64,000 nt of DNA from Platerodrilus igneus (lineage: Eukaryota; Arthropoda; Insecta; Coleoptera; Lycidae): positions 30,001-94,000 of the forward strand of contig JARFIW010001257.1 of the NCBI GenBank assembly GCA_036346225.1, read 5' to 3'. The translations under genes were made by a program, and so were the position numbers. Shown here in pieces: positions 2,437 through 53,075 of the stretch; positions within the stretch are counted from its first letter, which is position 1; every line of letters starts with the position of its first letter. The notes beneath the pieces are model-generated. The model did no database searches, was not told the DNA's origin, and worked only from the letters and a program-made list of their open reading frames with translations.

Positions 2437-3538
2437 TTCTCGGTGTAACCAAATTCCAAATTTCATTTCAATTATACTTCTTTCACAGTAATCTACGTTA
2501 CTTAATGTCCCGACACGAGTTGATAAAAAATTACAGGTGATACCTCAATAAAATAAGTAATCTCGGCACACTAACCGCGTTTTAATTTAAGAGTCTACCA
2601 CTATGCAATACAATTTAAATGCTTTTATAATACTTACAACTCGTGTTAACTTTCATACGTGCTTTTGGGACGATCGAAATAATAAGGGCTTTAATAATAT
2701 TCTCCTAAACTATTTATATCATTAGAATGCCACCTCCTGGCCACGTTTATTCGAAAAATCTCCTGCTCACAACAACACATTCCCACAATTTTGCACTCAA
2801 CCCCATTTTCAAATCCGCGAATTTCAGTACCTCGTTATACTATTTTAAGAAAATAACGCTACACTATCCTCGTGTTTATATCAAGTCAAACTAAACATAT
2901 CGACCAATCGTAGACCTAATGACGTTTCTCAAATCCCTCCTATACTATCTTGGTCCCATGCTTATACGTTTTCTACGTCTCTTTCTAACCTGGTTTGAGT
3001 GGTAGAAAATCAATATTCCTGTTTGTGCGCTGTCTACCACACGTGGACTTTCTCATTAGCAGTTCATGCTAAAACATCCGACCGTTTGGACAATCCTTAG
3101 AATAATTTGTTTGTTATCTACAAATTAAATAGAACTTGACATTTAGAAAATACGCAGGTGTTCAATCGTAACGTTTTAAATAACACTTCCACGATTTAGA
3201 GTTCGGCGTATTTCTACCCCACTGATATATTTGTCAGATAGTAACGCGTTTCATCTTGGTATCATTGGGTTTTTACACGTTTTTATGCATATTATACATC
3301 AATAATCGTTCAATTACATTCAAATTAATTAATAAATTAATGGCATTGGCTTCTACCATTTAATTTCTTTGCAAACCTACTTAAATTTCATTAATTATTT
3401 ATAAAATTTCGTTAATACCTGATACTTAAAAATGAATTAACTAATATATCTTTCGCACGTAATTTCTGGTTGTTCCTTTATACAGGGTGTTTTGAAATGC
3501 TTTGTTTATATTTATTTTTGATCTTTTAAAACCACTAT
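2437..3538. repeat. 1.1-kb direct repeat, copy 1
   Basis: Nearly the same sequence occurs at 7546-8648, starting at cttctcggtgtaacc and ending at cttttaaaaccactata, with only scattered differences. The two copies bracket the gypsy gag-protease segment in the same orientation and could be its LTRs. No TG...CA ends with matching target duplication could be found, and a primer-binding-like site lies about 900 bp further in (6640s). They may therefore be copies of another repeat. No coding sequence was seen in this repeat. Confidence 0.75.
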
Positions 3539-5292: not shown

Positions 5293-6503
5293 GGTCCTGG
5301 TCTAGCCGTCACCTCAGCGTATGTCCTAGGCGTTTCCACTCGTTGCGTGTTTGTATTATCAGTCCCCCGTATGTCCGGTGAACTGTTTTGTCTGGTAGGT
5401 CCCGGTCTCGGTGCAGGTCCCCTTCCTAAACTGTTACTTCTAACATATTGCCGTCGCTGTTCCCAATTCTGTCGCTGGTATCCATAACTATTCCCCCGTC
5501 TAGCGTAGTTGTCCCGTCTATTGTCGAACCTAACCGTGTTGATCTGTCTTTCCCTATGTTCCCGAGGTCGTCCACTACTTACGTCATCGTACCTCTGCAG
5601 GTATTCCAAAAACATTTCTCTGTCCACTATGTTCTGTAGTGCAACGTGTTGTCTTACCTCTACCTCGAAGTGTCGCGATAAATATTTAATAATTTGTCGG
5701 CCCGTCAGTGGTGGGTTTAGTTGCTTTGCTATGCTATACTTTCGTATAGCATAGTGGTCACTCCAATAGTGCTTTAAAAATCTGTCTTCAAAGTCCGTGT
5801 AGGTGTCAATTTCCTGTCCTATTAAATTATACCAAGCTTCAGCATGGTCTTTTAGTAAAGCTTTTACAATATTTAATTTTGCCTGTTCGTCGTATACGTT
5901 ATTTATTAACTTTCTAACATTATTAATAAATATTTGCGGGTTTACTCTACTATCCCCATAGAATTTCATTTGCTGCTCTAATGACACATTACTTGTTACG
6001 AACCTTGGACCATCCCCCATTAAAGTCGCTACATTCTGTTTAATCCTGGTCACTTCTCTCTCTACCCGACCTAACTGATCCTTACACGAGTCCGTTACCT
6101 CAGTCATTTTCGCATTAATCTCATCTTCACAGAAAATCCTTACATCAGTCCTTAATTGTCCCATTTCCAGATTCAAACCTCTAATATCGCGCTCATTTTT
6201 ATCAACCCTATTTTCAACTTCCCCCATCTTTACCATCAAGCTATTTTTAAATTCAGAAAATTCCTTCGTCGAATTATCAATTTTCAGACTAATCTGCTCA
6301 AACATTTTATTCGATTCGTCTCTACTTAATTTCATTTCCTCTAACATTCTCATCATCAATTCATTCCCAGTTTCTCCTGATTCCGTCCTCGACTGATCCC
6401 TACTACCTCCAGCTTCCTCCATTTTCAAGTTTTTGTCGCACAAGGCACTATCGTCACTTCCAATTTCCACTCCTCGACTTCTTAACCACTCCTTTCTCTG
6501 CAT
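5259..6503 (-). CDS. gypsy-type retrotransposon Gag
   Basis: This is an intact 414-residue Gag-like open reading frame. The N-terminal half (about residues 40-190) is strongly charged with heptad spacing (LEEMKLSRDESNKMFEQIS and following), suggesting a coiled coil. Residues of about 205-320 resemble the retrotransposon gag/capsid domain (QMKFYGDSRVNPQIFINN, AWYNLIGQEI, FLKHYWSD). The C-terminus is rich in Arg, Asn, Gln and Pro and would bind nucleic acid, but no CCHC zinc knuckle is present. Its 3' end overlaps the protease frame by about 30 nt. That it is uninterrupted while pol is broken suggests either youth or separate selection. Family assignment to Ty3/gypsy rests on the adjacent protease and overall layout. 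Confidence 0.75.
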   Translation of the reverse strand: MQRKEWLRSRGVEIGSDDSALCDKNLKMEEAGGSRDQSRTESGETGNELMMRMLEEMKLSRDESNKMFEQISLKIDNSTKEFSEFKNSLMVKMGEVENRVDKNERDIRGLNLEMGQLRTDVRIFCEDEINAKMTEVTDSCKDQLGRVEREVTRIKQNVATLMGDGPRFVTSNVSLEQQMKFYGDSRVNPQIFINNVRKLINNVYDEQAKLNIVKALLKDHAEAWYNLIGQEIDTYTDFEDRFLKHYWSDHYAIRKYSIAKQLNPPLTGRQIIKYLSRHFEVEVRQHVALQNIVDREMFLEYLQRYDDVSSGRPREHRERQINTVRFDNRRDNYARRGNSYGYQRQNWEQRRQYVRSNSLGRGPAPRPGPTRQNSSPDIRGTDNTNTQRVETPRTYAEVTARPGPSRENRPGQDF

Positions 6504-10668: not shown

Positions 10669-12325
10669 ATAAACCTAAGCTTTCGGATTTATTTTAATCC
10701 TTTTTCAAAGATACTACAATTACAAGATTGACAAATAAACATTAAATCATATTTTATACTCACTAAAGCGAGGTTATAATAAATTGGCAATTAACATAGA
10801 AAGTTATTTTCGTTATAAATCTTCTAAAATGTATATAACAACATCAAAATACAACAAGAGGTAAAATTATTATGTATATAAAATATTGATAATAAATAAT
10901 AGTCAAAAGTTTGATGGAAATTGTTATTAAAAGGCAACCTTAAAAAATGTTTATTATAATTATTTTGTGTACGTACCTGCGTGTAACACTGCGAGTGTAT
11001 GTATGAGTCTGTATGTGTGTGTATGCACGCACGTGTGTATGTGGGTGTGTTTGTGTGTGTGTGTGTGTGTGTGTTTTTAAAAATATTAAGAGAAATTCAT
11101 GTTATAGATCCATTGACAAATTTGTTGTTGTATGGTTGTCAATTTAAGTCATTAACATCTGGTTTTTGTTTATAGTATTTTATTGATGGTAGATGTGGCA
11201 CATTTCTAGAAACTCTCTTTTTGATTTTTTGTCTTCTATTTGTAATATAATTAGATTGTTAAAATCTATTTTGTTTTTTAGTATTTACGTGTACACATAG
11301 AGCACAAGCATTTGGTTTTATACGTATATCGCTCTTATGTTGGGTTATTCGCTGTTTAAAAGTTTGTTTGCTTTGTCCTACGTAACATTCATTACAATCT
11401 AAACAATTGATCTTATATATGATGTTTCTTTTATTTAAAATAGGAGTTTTTCTTGAATTTTAGAGAAAAGGCAATTTAAGGTTAAAGTATTTTTAGAAGT
11501 TATTTTTATGTTGAGTTTTGGTGAAAGGTGTTCAATGTATTGAAGAGATTTAAATGTAACTGTACTATCTATTTGTTTATTATTATTATTTGTGTTGTTA
11601 TGTGTATTATTGTCCATAATTTCTGCATTGTGGTTATATAAAAGACGTTTTATTAATTTTGGAGGATAGTTTTTTTATTAACATATTAAAAAGTTTGTTT
11701 ACATTTTTTTGATAAAATGTATGGTGATTTATTGTTTTAATTCTGTTTTATAGTGTTAAAATAAAATTTATTTTTATTTTGTAAGAGTGATATGAGAGGT
11801 AATTTAAGTACCTACCAGAGTTGGTTGGTTTTTGATACCAATCTAATAAAATAACATTATTTGTATTTCTAATAACTAACGTATCTAAAAATGGTACTGC
11901 GTTTTTATTCTCTACTTCTACGGTAAACTGAATTTTTTCGTGATAACTGTTAAGAGTATTAAGTGTTTCCGTAACTTTATTTGCTGGTACAGATGTAATT
12001 ATGTCATCAACAAATTTCTTTATGAAGGGTAGTTCAAAAGGAAGTTTCTTAATTACTTCATCTAAAAGACTATTCATTACAATTTGTGCAATTATTAGAC
12101 CTAAATTGGATCCCATAGGGCAACCAAAAGTTTGAATATAATATTCATTTTTGAAGCTGAAATAACTTATCAAATATGAATTCTATTATATCTAAAGATA
12201 ATTGTTTTGGAATATTACATGTGTTTTCTATATTATTCCAAATGATGTTGTCTAGTACTAATTGTTTTGGAATATTAGTAAATAGTGAAACTACATCTAA
12301 GCTTATTAATACATAATTGTCGTGG
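10669..12325 (-). pseudogene. Penelope-like element: reverse transcriptase plus GIY-YIG endonuclease, 5' truncated
   Basis: Read on the minus strand from about 12325. The first piece carries SLDVVSLFTNIP, reverse-transcriptase motif A of Penelope-like elements. After a frameshift near 12175 follow MGSNLGLIIAQIVMNSLLDE, KFVDDIITSVP (catalytic DD), VPFLDTLV and WYQKPTNSGRYLNYLS, all characteristic of this family. Further downstream (11435 to about 11290) comes YKINCLDCNECYVGQ with KQRITQHKSDIR, the GIY-YIG endonuclease module that these elements use for target cleavage. It is broken by frameshifts, lacks the N-terminal part, and abuts the 5' region of the LINE at about 12325. The 3' region holds a (GT)n tract (11030-11075) and, near 10672-10710, a hammerhead-like remnant. 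Confidence 0.85.
10943..11040. repeat. inner inverted repeat, left copy (mate about 19193-19297)
   Basis: The roughly 95-bp stretch aaaatgtttattataatta... tacctgcgtgtaacactgcg... recurs as its reverse complement at 19193-19297 with a few changes, including the GT/AC-rich tail. It lies in the 3' non-coding part of the Penelope-like element. Confidence 0.7.
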
Positions 12326-26242: not shown

Positions 26243-26425
26243 GTATATACAATTAAAATTTTTAACAACTTAAACACGACACTTATACAGTGCAAAACAT
26301 TTGAGATCGAAAACTTAAGCAAAACTGACTTCTAATTGAACAACACCGATAACGACCTCCAATCCAAAATCGTTATCGGCACAAATTAAACAAGACACAT
26401 GATACGGCCAAATGATTGTGTTACC

Positions 26426-26427
<2 letters not shown>

Positions 26428-26468
<41 letters not shown>
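26428..26468. repeat. (AT)n microsatellite left of the retrozyme
   Basis: About 20 AT units directly abut the HHR-bearing repeat. Confidence 0.95.
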
Positions 26469-26471
<3 letters not shown>

Positions 26472-26557
26472 CGAATAGTTAGTTTAATGAGTCTAAAATT
26501 AATGAAAAATAAAAAAAAGAATTAATGGCAAGTGACTCAAACCCAGCCACGAGGGCA

Positions 26558-26602
26558 TCCTGTCGACGCGTTTCGCCCTAATTGGGGCTCATCAGGACAG
26601 GA
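26558..26602 (-). ncRNA. hammerhead ribozyme, copy 1
   Basis: Minus strand, 5' to 3': helix I strand TCCTGTC, core CTGATGA, helix II GCCC/GGGC closed by loop CAATTA, core GAAA, a minimal helix III (ACGCGT), cleavage triplet GTC, then GACAGGA completing helix I. All conserved core nucleotides are present. Predicted cleavage is between 26565 and 26564. The very short helix III is typical of hammerheads in Penelope-like elements and animal retrozymes, which often work as dimers. Confidence 0.85.
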
Positions 26603-26863
26603 GTAGCAAAGTTGTAACATTTAATACAGACACGTTATGGGAAGTACAGCATCACCTAGCTCACAATTTGTGTCTTCGTATCGTTTCACCTAATATCGCA
26701 GGTTTTAACAACAGTCGGCACGGAGGAGATCTGGTTCAACTGCCTTTTTCCATAGTCAAAGATATAATTTAATCGAAAAGTTAGTTTAATGAGTCTTAAA
26801 TTAATGAAAAATTAAAAAAAAAAAGAATTAATGGCAAGTGACTCAAATCCAGCCACGAGGGCA

Positions 26864-26908
26864 TCCTGTCGACGCGTTTCGTCCTAATTGGGGCTCATCA
26901 GGACAGGA
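26864..26908 (-). ncRNA. hammerhead ribozyme, copy 2
   Basis: Same layout as copy 1, 306 bp away. The core CTGATGA, GAAA and GTC are intact, but helix II has one changed base (GGAC instead of GGGC), leaving one mismatch in a 4-bp stem. Predicted cleavage is between 26871 and 26870. Confidence 0.82.

Positions 26909-26910
<2 letters not shown>

Positions 26911-26958
<48 letters not shown>
26911..26958. repeat. (AT)n microsatellite right of the retrozyme
   Basis: About 24 AT units begin at the last base of the second hammerhead repeat. Confidence 0.95.
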
Positions 26959-26961
<3 letters not shown>

Positions 26962-27097
26962 GTATATAAATGGTGTTAACATTATTCTAAAAAGGGTACA
27001 GTTCATCATAGAGGTCTAGCTCTGATAATATTAGTGAACTCGCAATGTACCTATTGACTATCACTATCTTACTCTCCTGTTAACAGAATATTAGGTA

Positions 27098-27350
27098 AGT
27101 AGTGGAATACACCGATTCTGATGTAGCGCCGCCGCCGCTAATCGTTTTTTAATGGGTTTTCTCATTAAAAACTTATTAGCACTAATTGTTTTTAATGGGT
27201 TTTCTTATTAAAACCCATTAGCACTAATTGTATTTTAATGGGAAAACTTATTAACGATGTCATCATATTTTCTAACGTTACATCTGTCATTACCGCACCC
27301 GCAAACTAACCTAGGTTAGACAACGCACAATACACATATAACTTAGATAG
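27098..27350 (+). repeat. outer Polinton left terminal inverted repeat
   Basis: Matches the reverse complement of 56606-57238 from the tip through actaacctaggttagacaac to about acttagatag. It contains only about three units of the taatgggtttt minisatellite, against about a dozen on the right. Confidence 0.85.
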
Positions 27351-28877: not shown

Positions 28878-29475
28878 AAACCATCATCATCATCATCATT
28901 GGGTCTTCAGTCCTGAAACTGGTTAGACGCGTACCATCATTGTTTCCTATTCTGAACTAACCTACAGATTTCCCGAAATTTGCACAGTCTGCATCTATCA
29001 CTATCTGATCCTGGTCTACATCCCCTCTTTTTTCCTATCTCTGCTTGTCATATATCCCATACTATTCCCCAAAAATGCCTTAGAACGTATTCTGCCCTTC
29101 TATTTCTCATATTTTTTCCCAAAGATATCCTTGTTCCCTTACTGTTTCTATAACCTATTTGTTATTACCTTTGTCTGTCCATCCTCAAACATCTGAAGCA
29201 CGGCATTTCAAAAGCCGCTACTGTTCTTCTGTCTGCTTTTCAGACTGTTTGTATTTCGTAGGCATACTGTCTGTGCTGTGCTCCACACATATGCTTTCAA
29301 CAACATTTTGTTCTATATTTGTTGTCTTTCATCATAGGCGCTGTTCTTTCTTGTTAGATGCCGTTCGGTCACCTTCTATTGTTTTACAATTATATACCCT
29401 ATTTCTCCGACATTCCGTGGTTGCGAAGGGGTAAGCAGCCTGTGGCTGCCAAGTTCCCCAGCACGAATATTTACT
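28878..29475 (-). repeat. LINE 3' fragment (copy 1)
   Basis: Almost identical to 62500-63097. On the minus strand it runs from ggaacttggcagccacagg to a terminal (GAT)n tail (catcatcatcat on +). The region next to the tail would encode the end of an RT-type protein like the one at 63753-63962. It is inserted in the outer Polinton. Confidence 0.65.
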
Positions 29476-29992: not shown

Positions 29993-30064
29993 CATGGTGC
30001 TGCGTTCTTGTCGATGGTTGATTCTCAAATAACCAAACTTGCGGTAACTCTATCAATATATACT

Positions 30065-31609: not shown

Positions 31610-33251
31610 ATTAAATTTTCCCCAAAAAAAAAAAAAATTAAAAAAAAAACCCAATTTAAGGTTTTAAAAAAAAAAATTTTTTTTTTTGGAAAGGTAAAAT
31701 TTGGGCCCCAAATTTTTAAAAATTTTTTTAAAAAAAAAATTTTTTAAACCCGGGGGGGGGAAAAAAAAAAAAATTTTTTAAAGAAAAAAAAAAAAAAAAG
31801 GGAAAAAAAAAAACAAAAAATAAATTAAAAAATTTTTTTTTTTTTAAAAAAAAAAAAAGGGGGGAAAAAAAAATTTTTTTTTAAAAAAAAAAACCTTTTA
31901 AAACCCTTTAAAATTAAATTTTCCCTTTAAATTGGAAAAACAAAAATTAAACCCTTTTTTTTTTAAAAAAAATAAAAAGGGGGAAAAAAACGTTTTTTTT
32001 TTTTCCCAAAAAAAAAAATTTTTTAAACCAAAAAACCCCTTTTCCCTTTTTTTTAAAAGGTTTAAAAAAAAAAAAAAAAAAAAGGGCCAAAAAAAATTTT
32101 TTAAAAAAATTTTGGGGTTTAAAAAAAAGGGGAAAAACCCCTTTTAAAAAAACCTTTTAAAAAAAAAATTTTGAACCCTTTTTTAAAAACAAAAAATTTT
32201 AAAAAACCCCACAATTTTTTTGGGGGCCCCTTTAAAAAAAATTTTTTTAAAAAAAAAAGGGAAAATTTTAAAAAGAAAAATTTTAAAATTTTTTTTCCCC
32301 AAAACCAAAAAAATTTTTAAAAAAAAGGGGAAAAATTTAAAAGGGCCCCCCAAAAAAAAAAAATTTTTTTAAAAAAGGGAAAAAAAAAACCCCCCAAAAA
32401 TTTAAAAGGGGGTTTTTCCCCTTAAATTTTTAAAAAAAAAAAAATTTGGGTTTTTTAAAAAAAAAAACCCCCCCCCCAAAAAAAACCCTTTAAAAAAAAA
32501 AAAACCCCAAAACCCGGGAAAAATTTTTGGGCCAAAGGTTTTTTTTAAAATTTTTTTAAAAAACCCAAAAAGGGAAAAAAAAAAAATTTAAAGGGGGGCC
32601 CGGCGGGGTTTTTTTTTTTAAAATTTTTTGGTTTTTAATTTTTTAAACCTTTTTTTTTTCCCAAAAAATTTTTTTTTTAAAAAAAAAAAAGGGGCCCCCC
32701 CAAAAAACCCTTTAAATTTTTAAAATTTTTAAAATTTTTCCCCCCAAGGAACCAAAAAAAAAATTTTTTTTCCCGAAAATTTTTTTAAATTTAAAAAAAT
32801 TTTTTTTTCCCCAAAAAAAAACCCCCCAAAAAAAAAAAAGGGTTTTTTTAAAAAAAAATTTTCCCCCCCTTTTTTTGGGAAATTTTAAAATTTTTTAAAA
32901 TTTTTAAAGGGAAAAAAAAAAAGGCCCAAATTTTAAAGGGTTTTTTTTTTAAAAAAAAAAAAAAGGGGGGCCCAAAAAAAATTTTTTTTTTAAAAAAAAA
33001 ACCCCTTTTAAAAAAGGGCCATTTTTTTTTTAAACCCTTTTTTTCCTTTTTTTAAAAAAAAATTTTTGGGGAAAAAAAATTTTTAAAAAATTTAAAAAAA
33101 TTTTAAGGGGTTTTTTTTTTTTCCCCCCGGGTTTTTAAAAAATTTTAAAAAATGGGGGTTTTTTTCCGGATTTCCAAAAAAAAAATTTTTTCCCCCCAAA
33201 AGGGAAAAAAGGAAGGGTTTTTGGGGGGAAAATTTTTTCCGTTTAAAAAAA

Positions 33252-33282
<31 letters not shown>

Positions 33283-36200
33283 CTTTTAAAAAAAAAATTT
33301 AAAAAACCAAAAAAAAAAATTTTTTGGGTTTTTGGGGGGCCCCCGGGAAAAATTTTTTTAATTCCCAAAAAAATTTAAAATTTTTGGGAAAAATTTTTTT
33401 CCCCAAAAACCCCCCCCGGGTTTTTTTTTTGGAAAATTTGGGGCCAAAAAAAAAAAAAAAAAAAAAATTTTTGGGGAATTTTTTGGGCCCCAAAAAACTT
33501 TTTTTAAAAAAAGAAAAATTTTTGAAGAAAAAAAAAAAGGGGGGGGTTTTTTAAAAAAAAAAGGGGGGAAAATTTTCCAAATTTAAAAAGGGCCTTTTTC
33601 AAAACCCAAAAATGGGTTTTTTAAAAGGAAATTTCCCCCTTTTTAAGGAAAAAAGGGGGGGAAAAATTTTAAAAATTTTAAATTTTTGGGGGAAAAAGGA
33701 AAAAAAAAAAAAGGGGCCCAAAAAAAAATCCGGGAAAAAAAAAAAACCAAAAAAAAAAATTTTTTTTTTTTTTTTAAAAAAATTTTTTTGGTTTTTTTAA
33801 AAATTTTTTGGGGGGGAAAGGGTTTTTTGGGTTCCTTTTCCAATTTTTTTTTTTTGGGAAAATTTTTTTTTAAAATTTTTTTTTTTTAAAAAAATTTTTT
33901 AAAAAAAAATTTTAAAAAAAAAAAAATTTTAAAAATCAAATTCCAAACCCAAATAACCCCCAAAAAAATTAAACCCTTGAAGGGAAAATAAAAAAAAAAA
34001 ATTTTTTAAAAAAAAACCTTTTTTTAAAAAAAAAATTTTTTTTAAAAAAAAACCCCCTTTTAAAAATTTCCCAAAAAGGAAAAAAAAAATTTTTTTTAAA
34101 ATTTTTAAAAAAATTTTTTTATTTTTTTTTGGGGGGGGAAAAATTAAAAAAAATTTTAAAAAAACCCAAAAATTTTAAAAAAAATTTTAAATTTTTTTAA
34201 AATTTTTTTTTAAAAAAAATTTTAAAAAAAAATTTTAAAAAAAAACCCCCTTTTAAAAAAATTTTTTTTTTGGGGGGTTAAAAATTTTTTTTTTAATTTA
34301 AAAAAATTTTTTTTCCCTTTTAAATTTTTTTTTTTTTTGGGAAAAATTTTTTTTTTAAAAAAAATTTTTTTAAAAAAAATTTTTTTTTTTTTTTAAAAAT
34401 TTTTTTTTAAAAATTTTTTTTTTTTTTTTTTTAAAATTTTTTAAATTTTTTTTTTTTTTTTTTTTGGGGGTTTTTTTTCCCTTTTTTTTTTTTAATTTTA
34501 AAAACCCCTTTTTTAAAAAAAAAAATTTTTGGTTTTTTTTTAAAAATTTAAAAATTTTTTTTCCCTTTTTTTTTTGGGGAAAAAATTTTTTTTAAAAAAA
34601 ATTTTTTTTTTTTTAAAAAAAAAACCCCCCCAAAAAAAATTTTTTTCCCAAATTTTTTCCCCCAAAAACCAAAAAAAAAAAATTTTAATAAATTTTAAAA
34701 AAATTTTTAAAAAAAAAATTTTTTTTTTTTCCCCATTAAAAAATTTAAAAATTTTTTTTTAAAAAAAATTTTTTTCTAAAAAGGGAAAAAAAGGGTTTTA
34801 AAAAATTTTTCCTTAACTTTTTTAAATTTTTACCAAATTTTTTTTTTGGGGAATTTTTTGGTTTTTTTATTGGGGAAAAACTTTAAGGTTTTTTTTTTCC
34901 CCCCTTTTTTTTTTTTTAAAAAAATTTTTTTTTAAAAAATTTTTTTTAAAAATTTTTTAAATTTAAAAATTAAAAAAAATTTCCTTTTCCTTTTAAAAAA
35001 ATTTTAAAAAAACCCTTTTTTTTAAAAAAAAAATTTTTTTTTTAAAAAATTTTTTTTTTTTTTAAAAAAAAAAGTTTAAAATTTTTTTTTTTTTTTTAAA
35101 ATTTTTGGGATTTTTAAAAAATTTTTTCCTTTTTTTTTTTTTAAAATTTTTTTTTTAAAAATTTTTTTTTTAAAATTTTTTTTTTTAAAAATTTTTTAAA
35201 AAAAATTTTTTTTATTAATAAATTTTAAAAATTAAATTTTTAAAAAAAAAAAAAAAATTTAAATTTTTTTTTTTTTAAAAAAAAAAAAATTTTTTTAAAA
35301 AAATTTTTTTTTTAAAAAAAATTTTTTTCCCAAAATTTTAAAAAAAACCCCCCTTTTTTTTTTTTTTTTTTTAAAAAAAAACTTTCCTTTAAAAAAAATT
35401 TTTTTTTTTTTTGGGGGAAAAAAAAAAAAAATTTTAAATTAAAAATTTAAAAAAAAAAATTTTTTTAAAAGGGGTTTTTTTAAAAAAAAGGTTTTTTTGG
35501 GGGGCCCCTTTTTAAAAAATTTTTTAAAAAAAAAATTTTTTTTTTTGGTTTTAAAAAATTTCAAAAAAATTTTTTTTTTTTAAAATTTCCCCTTTTTTTT
35601 TTTTAAAACCCAAAAAATTTTTTTTAAAAATTTTGAAAAACTTTTTTTTTTATTTTTTTCCAAAAACCAAATTAGGTTTTTTAAAAAGGGGAAAAAAAAT
35701 TTAAAATTTTTTTTTTTTTTTAAATTTTCCCCAAAATTTTAAAAGGGTTTTTAAAAAAAAGGGAAAACCCCTTTAATTTAAAAAAGGGAAAAAAAGGTTT
35801 TTAAAAAAAAAATTTTTTTTTTAAAAAAAAAAAAAAAAAATTTTTAAAAACCCAAACCTTTTTAAAAAAAATTTTTTAAAAATTTTTTTAAAAAAAAAAA
35901 AAAAATTTAAAAATTTTTTTTTTTTTTTCCCAAAAAAAATTTGGGGTTTTAATTTTAAGGGTTTTTAAAAATTTTTTAAAAATTTTTTTTTTTCCCCTTT
36001 TTTTTGAATAAATTTTTAAAAAATAAAAAAAAAAATTTTTTTTTTTTAAAAAAAAATTTTTTAAAAATTTTTTTTTTAACCCAAAGGGTTTTTTCCCTTT
36101 TTTCCCGAATTTTTTTTAAAATTTTAAATTTTTTCCCAAAAAAATTTTAAAAAAAAATTTTGTTTTTAAAAAAAAATTTTTTTTTTTTTTTAAAAATTTT

Positions 36201-37204
36201 CCTTTTTTTTTCCCCAATTTTTAAAAATTTTAAAAAATAAAATTTTTTTTGAAAAATTTTTTTTTTTTTTTTAAAAAAAATTTTTCCAATTCCACCCCAA
36301 AAAAAACCCCCAAAAAATTTAAAAAATTAATAAAAAAAATTTAAATTTTTAAATTTCCCTTTTTTTTTAAAAAAAAAAAAAATTTAAATTTAAAAATAAA
36401 AATTTTTTTTTTTAAAAAAAAAAATTTTTAAAAAATTTTTTAAATTTTTTTTTAATTTTAAAATTTTTAAGGGGGGTTTTAAATTAAAAACCCCTTTTTT
36501 TTTTAAATTTCCTTTTTTTTAAAAAAAAGGAAAAAGGGTTTTAAAAAAAAAAAAATTTTTTTTTTCCCCCCCCTTTTTTTCCCTTTTTTTTTAAAAAAAA
36601 CCCCCTTTTAAATTTAAAAAGGGAAAATTTTAAAAAAATTCCGGGTTTTTTTTTTTTTGGGGTTTTTAAAAAAGGGGAATTTTAAATTGGGCCTTTTAAA
36701 ACCCAAAACCCAAAAAATTTAAAAATTTTCCAAAAAAATTTTTCCCCTTTTTTTTTAAAAACTTGGGTTTTTTAAATTTTTTTTAAAAAAAAAAAAATTT
36801 TTTTTCCCAAAAATTTTTTTAAAAATTTTAATTTTTTAAAAAAACATTTAAATTTCAATTTTTTTTGGGGGGTTTTTTTCCCCGGTTTTTGGGGAATTTG
36901 TTAAAACATTTTTTTTTTCCCCCCCCTTTTTTGGGTTAAAAGGGGAAAAAAAAAAAATTTGAAAATTTAAAAAAAAAATTTTTAATTTTTTTAAAAACCT
37001 TTTAAAAATTTTTTTTTTTTAACCCGGTTTTTTAAAAAAACGGAAAAAATTTTTTTTAAAACCCAAAAAAAAAAATTTTTTTAAAAAAAAAAAAAAATTT
37101 TTTTTTTTAAAAAAAAATTTTTTTTTAAAAAAAATTTTAAAAAATTAAAAAAAAAAAAAGGGTTTTTTTTTTAAGAAAAAAAAAACCAAAAAATTTTTTG
37201 GCCC
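31610..37204. other. homopolymer-run block, probable sequencing or assembly artefact
   Basis: About 5.6 kb consists almost only of runs of A, T, G or C of length 2-15 with hardly any single bases. Ordinary sequence fades into it on both sides. All apparent Lys/Phe-rich reading frames here are spurious. It cuts the unknown gene at 31.5 kb and the transposase at 37.2 kb. Real genes of the outer Polinton may be hidden or lost here. Confidence 0.85.
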
Positions 37205-44098: not shown

Positions 44099-45431
44099 TC
44101 AAACATGTAAAAGATATTGTAAAAACATGTAAAATATTAATAAATAAACTGTGATTGCTAAATGATTTATTGTTTTTTCATAATTTGTAAAGGTACAGTA
44201 ATAATAATAATAAAGTAATTTTAATATTCTTATGCTGTTTGAGAGTGGATTGTATTTGACTATCTTATCATGAAGTATAAGGCAATGACAATATGTATTT
44301 GGCAAAACGTTTCTGCTAGTTTCAAATTCTAATCTAATATCGACAGTACCAGATTTTAATGCTTCGTTTTGTCTAGAACAATCTATGACTACTAATGGTG
44401 CAATACTTCGTAAATCTTCAGGATTAAAAAGTGGTTCATTTTCCTTTTCGTAGTATGATTGCTGAAACTGAGCATACATCTCATATAACAACGCAGTCTG
44501 TTTATTCTCGAACTTCAAATTTAAGTTATCGTACGGGAAAATTTCTGAATTTAAATAGAGTTTCATGTTGGTTAAATAGCAATGATCAAAACGACTGTAG
44601 TTGCTCATGTATCTATTTTTTCGGTTGGTTTGGAAACCAACAATCACAAATCTTGGTTTTTCTAATTGTGTTGTTGTTTTAATGTTCCATGTATGACGTT
44701 TCGTTTCTTGTAGAAGTTGATATTCATGCAACTCCCATCCTCTAAACGGAATATGCAAATCCTGATTTTGTGCAACGCATTCTATTAAATTAATTCGTTG
44801 CGTATCATCAACGGCTACATGCGGCATTTTCCATAAAACTTTGTTTAAAACAACTTTTATTTCTTCATCGGGTGTAGGATTAATTATAGCATTAGTATCA
44901 TTCTAGAACGTAGTAAAACTAACTCATGACGGAGGTTTAAAATAATTTTTTTAAAATCTTTGCATAATCCGAGAACCATTGAAAGGTTTATTGCAATATT
45001 AAAATTCTCATCGGCATCAACTATTTGCGGATCATCCATAGGAAACCACCCAGAGTTTTGTAAATGTTTACTTTGATTGCTATTATATGAAACATATCCC
45101 TTCATTATAGACGTTAATCCAGGATTCCGAACACGATCTACAATGACACCACCAATCTCATATCTAATTTCATCAAAAAGCAGCAAAATCCCATTATTTA
45201 CAAACTTTGCTGTCTGAGACAGCGTTCCATCTGTTCTAATTAATTTGTCTTCTATGTACAGCATGGCTTCGATGGTAAGGTGTATACATCTTGTTGTTGT
45301 ATAGGGATTCGAATTTCATCATTATTGTTTAAAGATGTGTTAGCATAAGGTTGATGAGTATGTTTTTCAATATTAACAATTGCAATGTCGAAGTAAACTT
45401 TTTCACACACGTTCAGTATTTCACTATTCAT
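44099..45431 (-). pseudogene. Polinton major capsid protein (double jelly-roll), frameshifted
   Basis: This forms the icosahedral shell in the predicted virion form of Polintons. Start ATG 45431 (MNSEILNVCEKVYFDIAI), 8 bp after the penton stop. A frameshift near 45260 leads to MLYIEDKLIRTDGT, EIRYEIGGVIVDRVRN and GLTSIMKGYVSYN (first jelly roll). Another near 44885 leads to NPTPDEEIKVVLNK, then FVIVGFQTNRKNRYMSNYSR, EIFPYDNLNLKFEN and APLVVIDCSRQNEALKSG (second jelly roll). The end is uncertain: the last frame runs on into AT-rich sequence. Assignment rests on these motifs and the gene order with penton, protease and ATPase. Confidence 0.85.
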
Positions 45432-45439
45432 TCTACTTT

Positions 45440-46332
45440 TTAATTAAATAAATGCAGTCCTAACGATTGTAGAAACTGCCGGTTTTGTGTTGTTAGCGGT
45501 CTTGAAACAATCAATCGAGTGTCGATTGCTTTGAAATTACCAGCATTTATAGCAATTCTTGACATGTTGCGTGCATTATACTTAATACCCATGGCTATTG
45601 CAGATTTTTTTAAATGCAACCTTACAGTTAGCAGTTCTTCTCTGAAATTAACTAAATTTCCATCTTGATCTAACACTTTAACTATTATTTCATTTATTAT
45701 ACGTGACTTGATTGGTAGATATATAATCGTAGGTGGGCACTCGACAATTTTAAAACCTGCAGGTACTTGAGGAAAAAATTCGTGTATTACATGGGCTGGT
45801 TTACTATTTAAATAGGATCCACTTGCAATATTACAATCGATTAAAACTGCATTCACTTTACAAATGTTGATTGCGTAGTCTGCTTGATGCGTGACATATG
45901 CTAGCAATTTTTGCGGATTGAAACCAAGTAGAGAACCAATTGAATCCTTTTTGGTAAAATCCACATCTAGACTACATTTAATACTACATTTAAGTGTATT
46001 TTTGTCAGCTGTAATTTCTATATACACTGGCGTCTTTCTAGCACTTCGTGATTGTTCCATACGACCACGCCATCTTTTATCACCTAAAGCTTTTTGAGAT
46101 ATTTATTAATTTCTCTAATCTCATAAGCACCTTTAGGTATTTCTATGAATTCTCCGTTAGATTCATAATAAAATTTATTATTTATTCCTTTTTCTATGTT
46201 TGGAATTGTGTTATAAGACTCAAAATTTGTTAATCCTAATACGTACTCCGAATCATTATCCAAGTTAATAGGCGGATTAAAGTTGCTTGTTAAAACTGAA
46301 GTGTTTCCCGTTAGAGTAAAAGTGTACGACAT
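45440..46332 (-). pseudogene. Polinton penton / minor capsid protein, one frameshift
   Basis: Two consecutive frames, 46332-46084 (MSYTFTLTGNTSVLTSNFNP, GLTNFESYNTIPNIE) and 46060-45440 (LKCSIKCSLDVDFTKKDSIG, SLLGFNPQKLL, HVIHEFFPQVPAGFKIVE, VKVLDQDGNLVNFREELLTV), form the single jelly-roll minor capsid protein of Polintons. Only one frame change, near 46075, separates them. The gene starts 20 bp after the protease stop and is followed within 10 bp by the major capsid start, so the virion genes are compactly co-oriented. Confidence 0.85.
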
Positions 46333-46351
46333 GATAACTTCATACGCAGTT

Positions 46352-46717
46352 CTATGTACTACTTAGAAATTGTAAGCATAAATGACCGCAAAACACAGTA
46401 CCGTACGATTGTTCTTGGTTAATGTTATAAAGAATTTTACATTTACCCCCGCTATTCAAATAACTTATCAACTCTGTTGGCGGTTGCAGGTTTCCGTAGC
46501 TGTCATAGTAAATAGCGCTAATAACGTACTTTTTATAAGAGGTCCAATGCGTGCCTAAACCTTCTATTCCATCCAAATTAATTATACCGCATTTTTTTAA
46601 ATTAACTTTCTTGGGAAGATTGTTTCTCATGAACACTCCACGGAAATATGGTACTTTTAATTGCTTAACAAACTCTATTAATTCTACATTGCTTAGTGCT
46701 CGATTAGGTAAAATCAA
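46352..46717 (-). CDS. adenain-like cysteine protease of the inner Polinton
   Basis: A 121-residue intact frame of the Ulp1/adenain (C5) type that matures capsid proteins. Catalytic residues can be placed: His in GTHWTSY, Asp in YYDSYGNLQPP, Gln in NINQEQ, and Cys in TVFCGHLCLQF. The N-terminus, LPNRALSNVELIEFVKQL, and RGVFMRNNLPK are typical of the Polinton enzyme. The start overlaps the end of the upstream PLA2-like frame by 4 nt. It is one of the few unbroken genes in the nest. Confidence 0.88.
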   Translation of the reverse strand: MILPNRALSNVELIEFVKQLKVPYFRGVFMRNNLPKKVNLKKCGIINLDGIEGLGTHWTSYKKYVISAIYYDSYGNLQPPTELISYLNSGGKCKILYNINQEQSYGTVFCGHLCLQFLSST

Positions 46718-47549
46718 GTTGCGTTCCTTTGAGGTTTTGCAGGGGCTAAAAAAAGACCAAAACCTTTTTTATAAGGTTTGATGTACATGCCGTTTCCGAC
46801 TGCAATGTCCTCCATTGCCTTGTTATGACGTTGTTTTTTCGCTAGTTGTTTCTTAGCTATTTTAGTATCTGAAACTGCTTTTGCAACAGCAGCTGCACCT
46901 CCAGTAAGAGTACCAAGGGCGCTTAGGCCTGCAAAAATTGGTATTAGTGGTAGAAAACCTCCTGTTTTAGGAATTGATATAATACGAGCTGATTTAATAT
47001 GCTTCTTTTGTTTTGCTGTATTGGCGGTCTTAATTGCTATGTTGATTGCATCCATAATATTAGATCCTTTAGCCTTTTTTAAAGCTGTACGTGCTTGTTT
47101 GATAATACTTTTAATACCTAGCGAACTTCTTATTTTACGTTTCTTTATCAGTTTTCTTATTTTATTGATATTTTTTGTTCTCAGTGATGCACAGGCACCC
47201 ATACCAAGTTTTACTTTAGCTTTCATTGCGGTAGCTACTCCAAATGCTGCTACTTTTTCTCCTAAAGACGAGTCATCAGAATTTAGTCTTTCTGTAGCTA
47301 ACTGAGCTAACTTCGAATCTGCTTGATGGCGTTTAGATAGATCCTTTTCTTTGGAGTATGCAATATCGTGCTCCTTACAAGCCTCGTCTAACTTGTTTAT
47401 TCCTTTGTCTCCCCGGCTAACGGTTTGATTAGTTTTGTACCCGGACCGCAAAATTTGTAACCCGGAATATGCGCTTCAAATGGTAAATTGTTAATTACAG
47501 TATTTAACAGTCCGTTTCCAGTAGTTTTAGAATTATTATATGTAATCAT
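46714..47549 (-). pseudogene. PLA2-like minor virion protein of the inner Polinton
   Basis: Start ATG 47549. The first frame has PGYKFCGPGTKL, a calcium-binding-loop motif of parvovirus-type phospholipase A2. After a frameshift at about 47405 the second frame gives LDEACKEHDIAYSKEKD, with the catalytic His-Asp pair. A long basic region follows (KLIKKRKIRSSLG), then a hydrophobic segment (FLPLIPIFAGLSALGTLTGG) and a basic, aromatic C-terminus. In related adintovirus/Polinton genomes such a protein is thought to help the particle leave the endosome. It is broken here and opens the minus-strand virion module. Confidence 0.8.
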
Positions 47550-47661
47550 TAGCGGACAACTGTCCTCTCAAGCTGTGCAGTAAATAAATAAAATATTGTG
47601 AATTAATGATTCTTTATATATAATTCCACTTTTTTTACAATCGAATTTAGTACTTGCAAAC
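47550..47661. promoter_or_regulatory. divergent intergenic region between virion genes and ATPase
   Basis: A 112-bp spacer separates the divergent starts at 47549 (minus) and 47662 (plus). It is AT-rich with a TATA-like ctttatatataatt about 50 bp before the ATPase start. A bidirectional promoter is inferred from position only. Confidence 0.35.
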
Positions 47662-48351
47662 ATGCGTGTTGTGAAACAATCAACACCTTTAACCATAAAC
47701 AATAATGACATTGGCGTGCAATCCTTAGCTAAAAAGAAAAAACCTAGCGTTCTTCTGCCTTCATCTATTCGATGTCTAGTTGTTGGTCCATCAAATTGCG
47801 GTAAAAACAACGTTATGATTGGGTTGATAGAACATCCTAATGGTTTAAAGTTTGAAAACGTATATGTTTATTCTAAATCACTTTATCAACCAAAGTATCA
47901 ATACCTTGAAAGTCTACTGCGATCAATAAAAGGGATCAAATATTATACATTTTCCAGTTCTGATAATATTATATCACCATCTGATGCTCGAAATAATTCT
48001 ATATTTGTTTTTGATGATGTAGCTTGCGATAAACAAGGTATCATTAGGGAATACTTTAGTATGGGGTGTCATAAACAAGTAGATAATTTTTACTTTTGTC
48101 AAAGTTATCCTCGTATACCTAAGCACTTACTACGTGATAATGCTAATCTTTTAGTTTTATTTAAACAAGATGATTTAAACTTAAAACACATATATGACGA
48201 TCACGTCAATACTGACATGAAGTATGATAAATTCCGTGAAATATGTGCTGCTTGTTGGCAAGACAAATACGGTTTCTTAGTTGTAGACAAAGATAGTGAT
48301 CCAGGTCAAGGAAGGTACCGAATAAGTTTTTATCACTTCATACATATTTAA
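47662..48351 (+). CDS. FtsK/A32-type genome-packaging ATPase of the inner Polinton
   Basis: An intact 229-residue frame. Walker A appears as VVGPSNCGKNNVMIGLIEHP: the position after the conserved Lys is Asn, where Ser or Thr is expected, which would impair Mg-ATP binding. Walker B is SIFVFDDVAC. Further family features are YVYSKSLYQPKYQYLE, FCQSYPRIPKHLLRDNANLL and a C-terminal RYRISFYHFI. This enzyme pumps DNA into the capsid. It is transcribed away from the virion module, and the next gene follows 64 bp later on the same strand. Confidence 0.88.
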   Translation: MRVVKQSTPLTINNNDIGVQSLAKKKKPSVLLPSSIRCLVVGPSNCGKNNVMIGLIEHPNGLKFENVYVYSKSLYQPKYQYLESLLRSIKGIKYYTFSSSDNIISPSDARNNSIFVFDDVACDKQGIIREYFSMGCHKQVDNFYFCQSYPRIPKHLLRDNANLLVLFKQDDLNLKHIYDDHVNTDMKYDKFREICAACWQDKYGFLVVDKDSDPGQGRYRISFYHFIHI

Positions 48352-48415
48352 ACCTTGAGAGACGCAAGTATCGTTAGTATCGAAGAATTTTTTTTTACAA
48401 TAACCTTTTTACGCA

Positions 48416-49490
48416 ATGAACAAGGAGGCGATAAAACTTAAAAGAATTTTAATTAAGAAAAGAAACACTGTAAAAAACTAATTGCGCCGGTTAAAAGATA
48501 ATGAAGTCGTCCAAGTGGAATCAATCTTACCCATAACATCGCGATTAGAACCTATTGCTAATAAACTGGATGGGGAAAGTGTGGTAAAGAAAGAAAAATT
48601 TAAAGAAGAAGAAGAACTGCCTCATAGCAGTGTAAAAAAAATTAAACCTAAATTGCTAGAAAGGAACGTTGACTATATTGATTCGCCCGTTATTGCTCAG
48701 CATATACCGAATATAAAAAATGATGCCATAGAGGAAGATGATGATGATGATGTTGAGATTGAATACGAAGCAGAAGTTAATCGAAATGCACAAGAAGCCC
48801 AGGAATATATACAAAGCTTTGCCGATTCACCTGGTATGACACATTATCTCGAACAGCTACATCCGCTACCTCGAGAATATATTTACAATATTTTTAAAGA
48901 TGTTAAGAACGAATTTGATCATAAATATGGTATTAGGTTTAACCCTGATTCAAATGGTTTTATGATAGGCAATTCGAATTTCGTGTTGGATGATGAAAAT
49001 GTTCTAATAAATGATTTGAAATATAAAGGTACTCCTGGATTATACGAACTACTGTTTAACAAATATCCTGTCGGGTACAGATCGCAAGATCTAAAGTCGT
49101 ACCTTGATATTGTGAAAAGAACAAATGCTAATAGAAGATATTATTCTGAAACAGAACAAATTCAGGGTAATAATTCATATAAATACAAAATATAATATCT
49201 ACATTAAACATACTTCCCAAACACCCGTAGACCTAGAACATTACCCTATAGAAAGCGTCTTGGAGACGGTATGACAATGGAAGTATCAAATAACGCTATA
49301 GATTATTTATATTGGAATGATCCCAATGAACTTGTTGATAGATTACGGCTTTTAGTTTCATCTATCAGAACATGTCTTGGACACACAGGTCACGGCAACG
49401 AAATTAAATTCGTATACAAATTGAAGAATTGCGTGAGGCGAAAGTGATTATATGAATATGACAATTGACAAATTTGGAAGGCACTTAAAT
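48416..49490 (+). pseudogene. conserved Polinton hypothetical protein (GTPGLYELLF type)
   Basis: The original start is ATG 48416 (MNKEAIKLKRILIKKRNT). An in-frame TAA at 48479-48481 precedes the long frame 48482-49195, with an acidic stretch EEDDDDDVEIEYEAEV, then YKGTPGLYELLFNKYP and SYLDIVKRTNANRRYY. After a frame change near 49195 come DYLYWNDPNELVDRLRLL and GHGNEI, which match the expected end of the same protein. This protein is widespread next to the ATPase in Polintons. Function is not established. Two breaks make this copy non-functional. Confidence 0.75.
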
Positions 49491-49820
49491 AACCGTAAAA
49501 TAGATATATAGTGAACAGGAATATGAAAATCAAAATGAAGGTTCTTGAAACTCTTGATTGAAGTACAAGTTACATACTGCTACAATTACACGGTAGTAGC
49601 AACGTTTTACTCTAGTACATTCCTCGATGGTGATCAAGACATTCCTTATTTTCAACATTAAACATAAATTATGAATTTCCATTATGAGTTGAAGCAGTCA
49701 TTGAGAATATTAAAGTATACCCGCAAGACATTGAAATTTTATAAACAAATTGAAGATAAGACTTATAGTAATAGTTTACACGTGTACAATCAGCGATTAA
49801 TTTTGTATAAATTCAATATG

Positions 49821-50785
49821 GAAAACATTTTTAACATGTTTCTATTTATACAATTTAGAGGATGGTTATTAAAAGTGTGCAATTGCATTATTAAAGGCTT
49901 AAGTAGTCATTTTTATATTTATTTTGAAGGAAATCATTATGATTTAGGCTACCTCTTTGGTAGATTTTAACATTGTTCTGAGGTAACCTTATGGTGGGTT
50001 TACTTGTCAGATACCAATGTTGTTCTATGAAGGTTGTATATGGATCTGAGGCGACCCTATGGCGGGTTTACACTTGTCAGATACCAATACTGTTTAACGG
50101 AGATTGTAATGGTTGTGAGGTAACCTTATTGCGGGTATACACTTGTCAGATACCAATGCTGTTTTACAGGGTTGTTAATATGTTTCATCATCATCATCAT
50201 TGGATCTTCATCTCAAAACTGGTTGGACACTGACCTGCATTTTATTCTATTCTAAGTTAGCTTCCTTCTATTGTTTTCTAATTTTATGTTTTATTTCACC
50301 TTATAATTTAGGTGAAATAAAATAAAAAAAAATTAGAAAACAATAGAAGAAGCAACTTAGAATATAAATAAGTGCAGGTACGTGTCCAACCAGTTTTTGA
50401 GATGAAGATCCGATGATGATGATGATGAACATATTAACAACCGTAAAACAGCATTGGTATCTGACAAGTGTATACCCGCAATAAGGTTACCTCACAACCA
50501 TATACAATCCGTTAAACAGTATTGGTATCTGACAAGTGTAAACCCGCCATAGGGTCGCCTCAGATCCATATACAACCTTCATAGAACAACATTGGTATCT
50601 GACAAGTGTAAACCCACCATAAGGTTACCTCAGAACAATGTTAAAATCTACCAAAGAGGTAGCCAAATCATAATGATTTCCTTCAAAATAAATATATAAA
50701 ATGACTACTTAAGCCTTTAATAATAGCACTACTTTAATAACCATCCTCTAAATTGTATAAATAGAAACATGTTAAAAATGTTTTC
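49821..50785. repeat. 965-bp palindrome (foldback)
   Basis: The left arm 49821 to about 50285 and right arm about 50320-50785 are near-perfect reverse complements around 50303. Each arm carries several copies of an approximately 60-bp unit with cacttgtcagataccaat and a LINE-tail-like catcatcatcattgga. Small frames crossing this region are not supported as genes. Confidence 0.85.
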
Positions 50786-51129
50786 AATTCAAAGTGTCCA
50801 TGTAATTTTTATAAAAAATTAAAGCTGATTTACTTATTAAACTTAAAAATATTGGTCCCAGCGAACACAATTAAAGCAATTATTATTTAAACTTAAAATT
50901 TTTGCTTATAATCAAAGTACCAAATATTTCAAACATCAATATTCATAAATGTCAACTTAAGTTTTATTATTTAAAAGATCCAGGTTAGGAAAACGTTAAT
51001 AAAGATAATTTTAAAACTAAGGGTTTAGATCCAAAAGATTAAAAGAAATAAAATTTCAAAAACATAAGGAGTATTTAAAAGGTTTTAATTGATTTAAAAT
51101 CAGATTAAAAAATATTAAATCCAACAAAG

Positions 51130-51295
51130 TGAAAAGGATATAGTAAATGAACTTCATAAACCAGCAAGAATAAATTTCAAGAGACGCAAAGAGATAGTAA
51201 AAGGTTTAATGAACTGTGAAAGAGGATATAGTAAATGAACTTCATAAACCAGCAAGAATAAATTTCAAGAGACGCAAAGAGATAGTAAAAGGTTT
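51130..51295. repeat. 87-bp tandem duplication at the integrase start
   Basis: gatatagtaaatgaacttca ... gtaaaaggttta occurs at about 51137-51209 and again at 51224-51296. The second copy is in frame with the integrase. Confidence 0.8.
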
Positions 51296-52055
51296 AAATG
51301 ACCTTCTTCAGACCGATTTGATTGAAATGCTACCATATTCGCAAACAAACAAAGGATTTAAATACATTTTAGTAGTTATTGATTGTTTCTCCAAATACGT
51401 ATGGGCTGTACCACTTAAAAGTAAAACGGGTATTGATGTTACTGCTGCAATGAAAACAATTTTAAATAAATTTAAAAATCCACCAAGAAATTTGCAGTCT
51501 GACTTTGGTAAAGAATATTATAACAAAAACTTTCAATCCTTAATGCAGACATATGGTGTTTTTTCTACAAAGAAAGCATGCATTGTGGAACGTGTAATTA
51601 GAACTTTAAAGGGAAAAATGTGGCGCTTGTTTAACCTGAAAGGTTCTTACAATTGGATAAAAAATTTAAGCGATATTGTGAAACAATACAACAATACAGT
51701 TCATAATACTATCGGAGTCAAACCTGTAAAAGTTGATAAATCAAATGAAAAAACTATTCTTAAATCATCATTTACCCACATCAAACTTGCAACCAAAATA
51801 CCAAAATATTCAATTAAAGACAGTGTGAGGATTAGTAAACACAGGGAAGCATTTACGAAAGGTTACACGCTAAACTGGTCAAATTAAATTTTTAAGATTA
51901 AAAAGGTAAACGTAACCAATCCTACAGCATATATATTAGAAGATCAAGACGAGAAAGAAATCAAAGGTGCATTTTATGAAATGGAGTTGCAAAAGGTTAA
52001 ACATCCAGGAATTTACCTGGTAGAAAAAGTCTTAAGAAAGAGTGGAAATAATACA
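51216..52055 (+). pseudogene. inner Polinton integrase with chromodomain-like tail
   Basis: The catalytic core is well preserved: VVIDCFSKYVWAVPLKSK (Asp), NLQSDFGKEYYNKNF (Asp) and CIVERVIRTLKGKMW (Glu). The C-terminal KYSIKDSVRISK and FTKGYTLNW are cut by a stop at 51885-51887. The same protein continues in another frame with FKIKKVNVTNPTAYILE, IKGAFYEMELQKVKHPG and YLVEKVLRKSGN, the start of the chromodomain. The 5' end is disturbed by an 87-bp duplication. It would catalyse insertion of the element with a 6-bp target duplication. Confidence 0.85.
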
Positions 52056-52134
52056 GACAAAATCTTTCTATTGTTTTTTATTATTATAAGGCCATTCTTT
52101 TAATAAAAAGGAATTTTGTAAGGCTAACATTGTA

Positions 52135-53075
52135 AAATTATATTAAAATAAATAATACAGACAAAATTTTTCTATTGTTTTTTATTATTATCAAGCCATT
52201 CTTTTAACAAAATGGTATTTTGTTTTGCGCATTGCAGATTATTATTGCTGTGTCTACAACAATGGATATTATATTTTAAACGATTGTTGATTTTTAACTC
52301 CGATAGCTTAGGACAACCTAGTGCAAGCATATCAGTTACAACGTTTTGCATTAGATAGGTTTCAATCAATTTCTTCTTTTCTAGACCCTTCACAAATACT
52401 TCTTCATCGGGTCGGATAATTTGCTTCCAATAAAGCGCTATATATGATAACACCATTCCAGCCGTTTAAGATTCATCCCAAGAAAGACCATGAATATTCC
52501 TTGTCACCCAGTCGTTATGTTTTATATGATCTTGGCTCAAACAACTAGACTGCATTGACAGTTTAAAAATTTGATACCAAACATCACCTAACAACAAGTC
52601 CAAAACCGCAATTTCTTTGCACACAAACTCGTTTTTCTTGTATTTAAATCCCTGAATATCAATTATATACATGTTTGTATGTAAATATATGCAGTAAACT
52701 TCGACTAATTAAATTAATATTAGGAGCAATCTCCTAATAAAGCAGATTACCACCATCTGCGTACTTTGCCAACCCACTTTTCAACATATCACAAGAGTGA
52801 ACACATTTTGAATTGAAACCGGCCCATGTGTATTTGCAGCCTCTAAACATAAATAAAAAACATAAATCAGAATCCACTTTAATTAAACACAATTGACTTG
52901 AATGCGATATTTTGCATCTGGCATACTTTATAACTTCTCGCTAGAAAACCAAATTCAAAACAGCTACACACATTTTCTCTGCACTTACATTTTTCAACAT
53001 ACGTGTGTTTTGAAGTATGTATGTTCCATTGAAAGTAATATAAAGCCGGTCTGACTTCAAAACATGCTCACAAGT
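52135..53075 (-). repeat. inner Polinton right terminal inverted repeat
   Basis: Reverse complement of 38119-39060, including the second copy of the IDIQGF gene. Confidence 0.9.
52172..52672 (-). pseudogene. IDIQGF-type Polinton protein, right TIR copy
   Basis: The better of the two TIR copies: MYIIDIQGFKYKKNEFVCKE opens an unbroken 68-codon frame to GLSWDES, followed by TAA in frame, then GMVLSYIALYWKQIIRP, KKKLIETYLMQN, LGCPKLSELKINN and CCRHSNNNLQCAKQN. The shared TAA could be an old mutation copied between TIRs, or a real stop with a second small gene after it. No catalytic motif was recognised. The Cys/His cluster near the end could bind metal. Confidence 0.6.

Follow-up and report, generated by a model that had tools for sequence, protein, structure and literature searches.

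A hammerhead retrozyme family of Platerodrilus igneus with head-to-head arrays and putative links to Penelope-like retrotransposons

In this study, a window of 64,000 nucleotides (positions 30,001 to 94,000 of contig JARFIW010001257.1 of the lycid beetle Platerodrilus igneus) was analysed together with related loci of the same assembly. As judged from its sequence, an element on the minus strand of this window (26465..26911) is one copy of a well preserved animal-type (non-LTR) retrozyme family, i.e. a family of a known kind. The best explanation of the data, to which we assign a probability of roughly 0.7, is an animal retrozyme whose hammerhead-cut units would be copied by a Penelope-like enzyme from two internal start sites and joined head to head. 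Penelope-like elements have been named as the likely carrier of animal retrozymes, and the argument has so far drawn on the type I hammerheads common to both, their occurrence in tandem and their coexistence (PMC7229834). The family described here adds physical evidence, namely insertion ends of the Penelope type and loci that join both sequences. The question of the carrier can now be tested with one protein, one RNA and a single (AT)n target. The regular pairing of a short with a long end, described below, is a constraint on any mechanism.

The window element and its two hammerheads

Two type I hammerheads, spaced 306 nt apart and each retaining every core nucleotide, are located on the minus strand of the window, as the first-pass annotation had proposed from the sequence alone. 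Each of them matches CTGATGA-N14-GAAACGCGTC exactly (26565-26595 and 26871-26901). When up to three mismatches were allowed, the pattern had 2 matches in the window, while shuffled sequences (n = 100) gave a mean of 0.05 matches and none of the 100 reached two. The covariance-model search that had been suggested as a check recovered both sites. The Rfam model Hammerhead_1 (RF00163) matched copy B (26559..26601) with 33.5 bits (E = 1.6e-4) and copy A (26865..26907) with 29.2 bits (E = 4.3e-3), the E-values referring to the whole window; both scores are slightly below the curated cut-off of 34 bits, and at that cut-off the Rfam scan of the window reported no hammerhead. The type I model was the best match and the open ends are located in helix I, while the arrangement of type III was not found. 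Copy A is the 5' hammerhead of the transcript, with expected cleavage at 26871/26870, and copy B the 3' one, with expected cleavage at 26565/26564; the two expected sites delimit a 306-nt unit (26565..26870, minus strand) with a GC content of 38.9%.

The complete copy comprises about 1.5 units in a single arm, and its 3' end, which belongs to the long class defined below, runs into (TA)n. The direct repeats noticed in the first pass were found and measured at 145 nt (5' copy, 26767..26911) and 141 nt (3' copy, 26465..26605). Both are on the minus strand, differ by 5 mismatches and one 4-nt indel, and enclose a single-copy middle of 161 nt (26606..26766, minus strand), which elsewhere in the family is the remainder of the tandem unit. 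The AT-microsatellite flanks of the same annotation correspond to (TA)n on both sides, i.e. a (TA)21 array at the 3' end (26428..26469) and a (TA)24.5 array at the 5' end (26910..26958), and (AT)n is a family trait of the 3' end. Around the element there is an imperfect direct repeat of 18-21 bp (plus strand; left copy 26410..26430, right copy 26968..26985), a possible target-site duplication, whose score was reached by 17 of 20000 random 30-mer pairs and which was not distinct in a looser test (283/2000). In metazoan non-LTR retrozymes the target-site duplication, when present, is longer than 4 bp (PMC7229834).

The longest stop-free frame of the window copy, on the antisense strand, is 78 aa, and the unit contains no reverse transcriptase or GIY-YIG ORF. 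Folded as a circle, the unit gave z = -0.08, with 88 of 200 shuffles equally or more stable. A highly self-paired unit RNA was not used here as a defining trait, as the published statement is descriptive and its source lists mussel exceptions (in another respect). A tRNA B-box-like word, 2 mismatches from the consensus, was dropped.

Helix III of the hammerheads is minimal, consisting of a single pair and a palindromic tetraloop, and helix I has 7 pairs beside the core in each window copy, a complementarity that random flanks formed in 291 of 200000 trials. Helix I had been described as covarying; its sequence is the same in both window copies, and so it is complementary but not covarying. Covariation was also absent across 154 aligned family hammerheads, since the family is too uniform, its helices being nearly invariant. 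The full core noted for both copies is confirmed, and copy B is intact as a whole, but a reading of the locus as two fully intact ribozymes is not supported, as helix II of copy A has a C.A mismatch present in 1 of the 154 family members. Predicted pair probabilities are 0.03 (helix I) and 0.00 (helix II) for copy A and 0.71-0.75 and 0.65-0.66, respectively, for copy B, and copy A is predicted to misfold without forming a hammerhead. In a dimer held by the palindromic ACGCGU of helix III, the core of B could cut the site of A. A weak helix III of one pair with a palindromic tetraloop, which favours dimer action, is also described for the newt and axolotl hammerhead repeats of ~330-350 nt (PMC7229834, PMC6155905); the present family differs from these repeats in its sequence and insertion ends.

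As to the canonical contacts between loop 1 and loop 2 of metazoan retrozymes, an outer helix I of 5 bp closing a 7-nt bulge is possible in 129/154 family hammerheads, but 1967 of 20000 random flanks also form one. The hammerhead is only weakly more conserved than the rest of the unit (39 of 300 circular windows equal or exceed its conservation). In a prokaryote genome collection, which served as a control, a relaxed core pattern gave 6 exact matches, each with at most 2 helix I pairs beside the core; these were rejected as relatives, because helix I is missing and they look like chance. Viral contigs searched for the hammerhead or the unit contained no relatives, and two of them with a common type I core, which had no match at the Rfam cut-off, were set aside.

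A dispersed family with two classes of 3' ends

Further genomic copies, whose absence the first-pass annotation would have counted against a retrozyme, are abundant. The 2.71-Gb assembly holds at least 209 matches to the window element (a lower bound, from a search with 2007 first-look candidates of which 39 were scored), with tandem arrays among them, and the retrozyme reading withstood this search. The loci analysed were 37 stretches (L017-L053) among the matches listed and the window, i.e. 38 in total, and this sample covers the best-matching loci of a single family, all from one genome. At the fetched loci the arrays are head-to-tail runs of ~300-nt units, from ~1.3 to ~17 units per array. 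Of 164 hammerhead-like sites, the 154 with standard core length were aligned and the other 10 dropped; the core is intact in 143/154, and in 134/154 it is accompanied by at least 6 of 7 helix I pairs and all 4 helix II pairs.

One stretch (L017, C783:5000-12000) has the same flanks as the window element (26428-26958) and one retrozyme unit more, and is therefore probably the other allele or a duplicate of the window locus. It was counted as a separate stretch in the family counts.

The family displays the traits of metazoan non-LTR retrozymes, i.e. a type I hammerhead per unit, non-coding units within 170-400 nt, a GC content below 50% and dispersed head-to-tail arrays. The type I hammerhead and head-to-tail arrays are those described in coral, mussel and axolotl (Cervera and de la Pena 2020, PMC7229834), and non-coding units of 170-400 nt with less than 50% GC and without LTR or primer binding site are likewise common to these elements (PMC7229834). 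Unlike them, the present family has head-to-head short/long double arrays and candidate Penelope chimeras. The main text of PMC7229834, searched for inverted or head-to-head orientation or chimeras, makes no mention of these, and in the literature searched and the main texts we did not find the head-to-head short/long architecture, as read here from genomic sequence, described for retrozymes. The window copy alone, with two hammerheads, direct repeats and a non-coding middle, also resembles the plant LTR retrozymes (PMC4918200, PMC7229834, PMC7761336); the plant elements differ, however, in type III hammerheads, ~700-nt units, a primer binding site and 4-bp duplications (PMC7229834, PMC7761336).

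The positions at which arrays end were expressed in unit numbering, u1 being the first base 3' of the cleavage site. The 3' ends of blocks fall mostly into two zones, u40-68 (short, 28/71) and u78-112 (long, 30/71), which together hold 58 of 71 ends, with 13 elsewhere; these classes were defined after the data had been seen. Outer 3' ends adjoin (AT)n in 23 of 26 cases in the short class, in 26 of 28 in the long class and in 1 of 7 outside the two (49/54 classed ends and 50/61 in all); outer 5' ends, which are scattered, do so in 5 of 19. Fixed 3' zones, mostly beside (AT)n, combined with scattered 5' ends resemble the products of target-primed reverse transcription started at two internal sites. 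Beyond (AT)n, the flank is often like TTGCTATGATAACGCC (L021, L024, L026, L031, L033, L043, L048, L051 and L054). Such flanks occur at 3' ends of the retrozyme or of Penelope, and might mean that the target arrays lie in a common repeat or that the enzyme has a preferred site.

Forty-two insertions were delimited and two of them, running off the fetched ends, were dropped. The remaining 40 comprise 19 with two arms in minus-plus (head-to-head) order, 18 single arms (with 9 short, 8 long and 1 other 3' end) and 3 other patterns; under looser settings, 24 of 25 opposite-orientation junctions are minus-plus (head-to-head) and one is plus-minus. In 14 of the 19 two-arm insertions a short end is paired with a long one, in none are the two ends alike, and the other 5 involve unclassed ends (three long plus unclassed, two with both unclassed). 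Mixed ends in 14 of 14 cases have a probability of 6e-5 if ends are independent, a figure to be read with the post hoc setting of the classes. An overlap of 2-9 nt between the two arms is present in 11 of the 19 joints, and the 5' ends of paired arms are more than 10 nt apart in 18/19, which argues against hairpins formed by snap-back, the self-priming proposed for Penelope inversions (PMC3846280).

Of the 5' ends that could be used, only 6 of 69 are 5 nt or less away from the cleavage site (2.5 expected; p ~0.02-0.04). The excess is marginal, and this is not the densest spot. With so few 5' ends there, the cDNA would mostly pass through the cleavage site, and cut linear ends would not be a common template end. 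No general target-site duplication was seen in the 40 insertions: a score of at least 12 was reached in 5/40 vs 24/1560 mismatched pairs, and these five are the window, L017 and three cases of AT-rich or simple repeats. The imperfect 18-21 bp flanking repeat occurs at the window locus and L017 only.

Comparison of 155 full units gave a mean p-distance of 0.028 within the same block, 0.023 between blocks of one stretch and 0.055 between stretches, and 109.5 of 142 units (7.4 expected) had their nearest neighbour within their own stretch. This likeness within loci includes the opposite arms and thus indicates that both arms derive from like RNA. The homogeneity is as a multiply copied circle would give, and a linear multimer or later homogenisation would give much the same. 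Together, the many copies, the ~300-nt head-to-tail units, the type I hammerhead in nearly each of them and the homogeneity within loci bear out the assignment of the window element to the retrozymes.

Penelope-like partners and the possible route of transposition

Two loci look like retrozyme/Penelope chimeras, though they are only two and a later rearrangement is possible. At the first (L018/L054), nuclease-coding Penelope sequence of the same sense adjoins the retrozyme array on its upstream side, and the two have TTACA in common at the joint; the opposite arm is Penelope followed by (AT)n (3086-3133), and the retrozyme 3' end at u45 is without (AT)n. At the second (L022), one arm starts with a 3' part of Penelope beside (AT)n (1354-1387) and enters the retrozyme at u99, in the long-end zone, and the other arm ends at u57, adjoining (AT)n. 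In both cases, the short end comes from the retrozyme and the other end from Penelope. A third candidate (L055/L030) was set aside as a probable nested insertion.

Penelope copies near the retrozyme arrays, known here from partial copies at the fetched loci, are themselves inverted in this way. Where Penelope matches occur on both strands (L018, L032, L033 and L039), their order is minus-plus in all four loci. The inverted arms measure 956 bp in L056 (98.7%), 864 bp in L039 (97.8%) and 293 bp in L054 (91.5%), and L057 contains a palindrome of 1563 columns. In L056, the Penelope 3' end faces a retrozyme 3' end across a single (AT)n array (522-561), and in L039 Penelope sequence leads into (AT)n (6397-6436), after which comes a retrozyme 3' end. 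The ORF of L055 matched RVT_1 and GIY-YIG above the cut-offs, and that of L056 matched GIY-YIG above the cut-off. The window contains a Penelope-like reverse transcriptase fragment (11748..12182, minus strand; RVT_1 27.3 bits, cut-off 29.6), a separate degraded copy located 14 kb from the retrozyme, which over part of its length is 48-55% identical to the reverse transcriptase ORFs of L055 and L056.

It has been reported that Penelope copies occur inverted head to head, with or without a tail at one of the inverted ends (PMC3846280), and that a lizard Penelope protein starts at two internal sites next to each other and has a preference for AT-rich DNA (PMC11167929). The retrozyme family is like Penelope-like elements in its minimal hammerhead, internal starts, head-to-head inversions, tail at one end and AT-rich targets (PMC3846280, PMC11167929), and unlike them in that the unit is without protein, that ~300-nt units are repeated and that Penelope coding sequence is found in the chimeras only. 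The head-to-head inversion with a tail supports a likeness in how these elements work and are moved, not membership. The Penelope-like insertion ends and the loci joining retrozyme and Penelope thus provide a physical link to Penelope-like machinery and point to a Penelope-type retrotransposon as the putative source of the copying enzyme.

The family, its units, the fixed 3' ends, the inversion and the candidate chimeric loci were read from sequence, and from them we infer cleavage, a circle, the identity of the enzyme and the following order of steps. A transcript of the array would be cut by its own hammerheads into ~300-nt units, which would probably be ligated into circles. A Penelope-like protein (reverse transcriptase and GIY-YIG nuclease), encoded elsewhere, would open (AT)n on both strands, and reverse transcription would begin at either of two internal RNA positions, ~58 or ~109 nt past the cleavage site, and run through one to many units, either round the circle or on a multimer that has not been cut. 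Two cDNAs, usually one per start site, would then join 5' end to 5' end by short microhomology, giving a head-to-head double array bounded by (AT)n on each side. A single array such as that of the window would arise if only one strand was copied or one arm was very short. The bolder proposal that animal retrozymes are obligate Penelope passengers, with one RNP opening (AT)n on both strands and copying one circle from two start sites (one per strand), so as to leave rolling-circle arrays, head to head, with exactly one tail of each length, short and long, has in our view an even chance of being correct.

The same family and enzyme might also work with a linear uncut multimer, transcribed from a homogeneous genomic array, as the template, and the hammerheads would then be irrelevant to transposition. 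The source arrays are themselves homogeneous, and likeness within loci is therefore no proof of a circle; moreover, hammerhead mutants were without effect on insertion in an assay of the lizard Penelope (PMC11167929). We nevertheless regard this possibility as unlikely, since with 134/154 hammerheads intact the multimers should cut themselves, and circles are documented for other animal retrozymes (PMC7229834).

It is improbable that there is no independent retrozyme and that the arrays derive from a Penelope-like element, either as serial pseudo-LTRs or by internal deletion. Such an origin would agree with the minimal helix III, as in Penelope hammerheads, with the Penelope-type insertion and the chimeras, and with the known capture of foreign DNA between pseudo-LTRs (PMC3846280), but it does not account well for whole 300-nt units in long arrays. 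When the unit was searched against L054-L057, it matched the arrays and, in the Penelope copies, only a single fragment located upstream of the ORF of L055. In addition, a frame opened by the ATG within the hammerhead meets a stop four codons later in both window copies, whereas the ORF of the lizard element starts there (PMC11167929).

The chimeric partners seen are Penelope, which makes it very improbable that a LINE-type element is the mover and that the inversions arose by twin priming. Twin priming is expected to produce one true 3' end and a random internal site, whereas both outer ends are here defined start sites, one short and one long. The imperfect 18-21 bp direct repeat at the window locus would suit such a mover, and any non-LTR enzyme could serve animal retrozymes (PMC7229834). 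Finally, satellite DNA spread by recombination alone, with which the long arrays and the one additional unit of L017 between window-element flanks might agree, is hardly credible given dispersed loci at which 3' ends are fixed and adjoin (AT)n, 5' ends are scattered and arms are paired head to head.

Other features of the window

The first-pass annotation had placed the element inside a host intron. In the parts of the window examined no host exon was recognised, and no host gene or intron was found, while Pfam searches with 20 window ORFs returned mobile-element or virus-like families and one helix-turn-helix domain; the intron placement is therefore unsupported.

The region 44099-55909 encodes a double jelly-roll capsid-like protein (DJR-like_dom, 260 bits) and an integrase core (51213-51887), with long ORFs around them, and we take these coding remains to be a Polinton/Maverick-like element. 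The best named relative of the capsid-like protein, 69% identical, is from the longhorn beetle Exocentrus adspersus, and other beetles are among the next named. A tandem repeat of 68-69 bp is present at 49977-50164, and its reverse complement forms a second tandem repeat 270 bp further on (50437-50636); the hairpin of these inverted repeats gave weak matches to plant miRNA models.

Positions 31620-37140, about 5.5 kb, consist almost entirely of stretched homopolymer runs (AAAA/TTTT/CCCC/GGGG), unlike the remainder of the window, and look like a stretch of failed base-calling or polishing in the assembly. Near-identical translated sequence at 29084-29434 and 62626-63096 represents a dispersed repeat, and short tandem arrays of an AT-rich unit of ~43-44 bp, of the TTTTAATGGG type, are found at 27138-27242 and 56698-57198.
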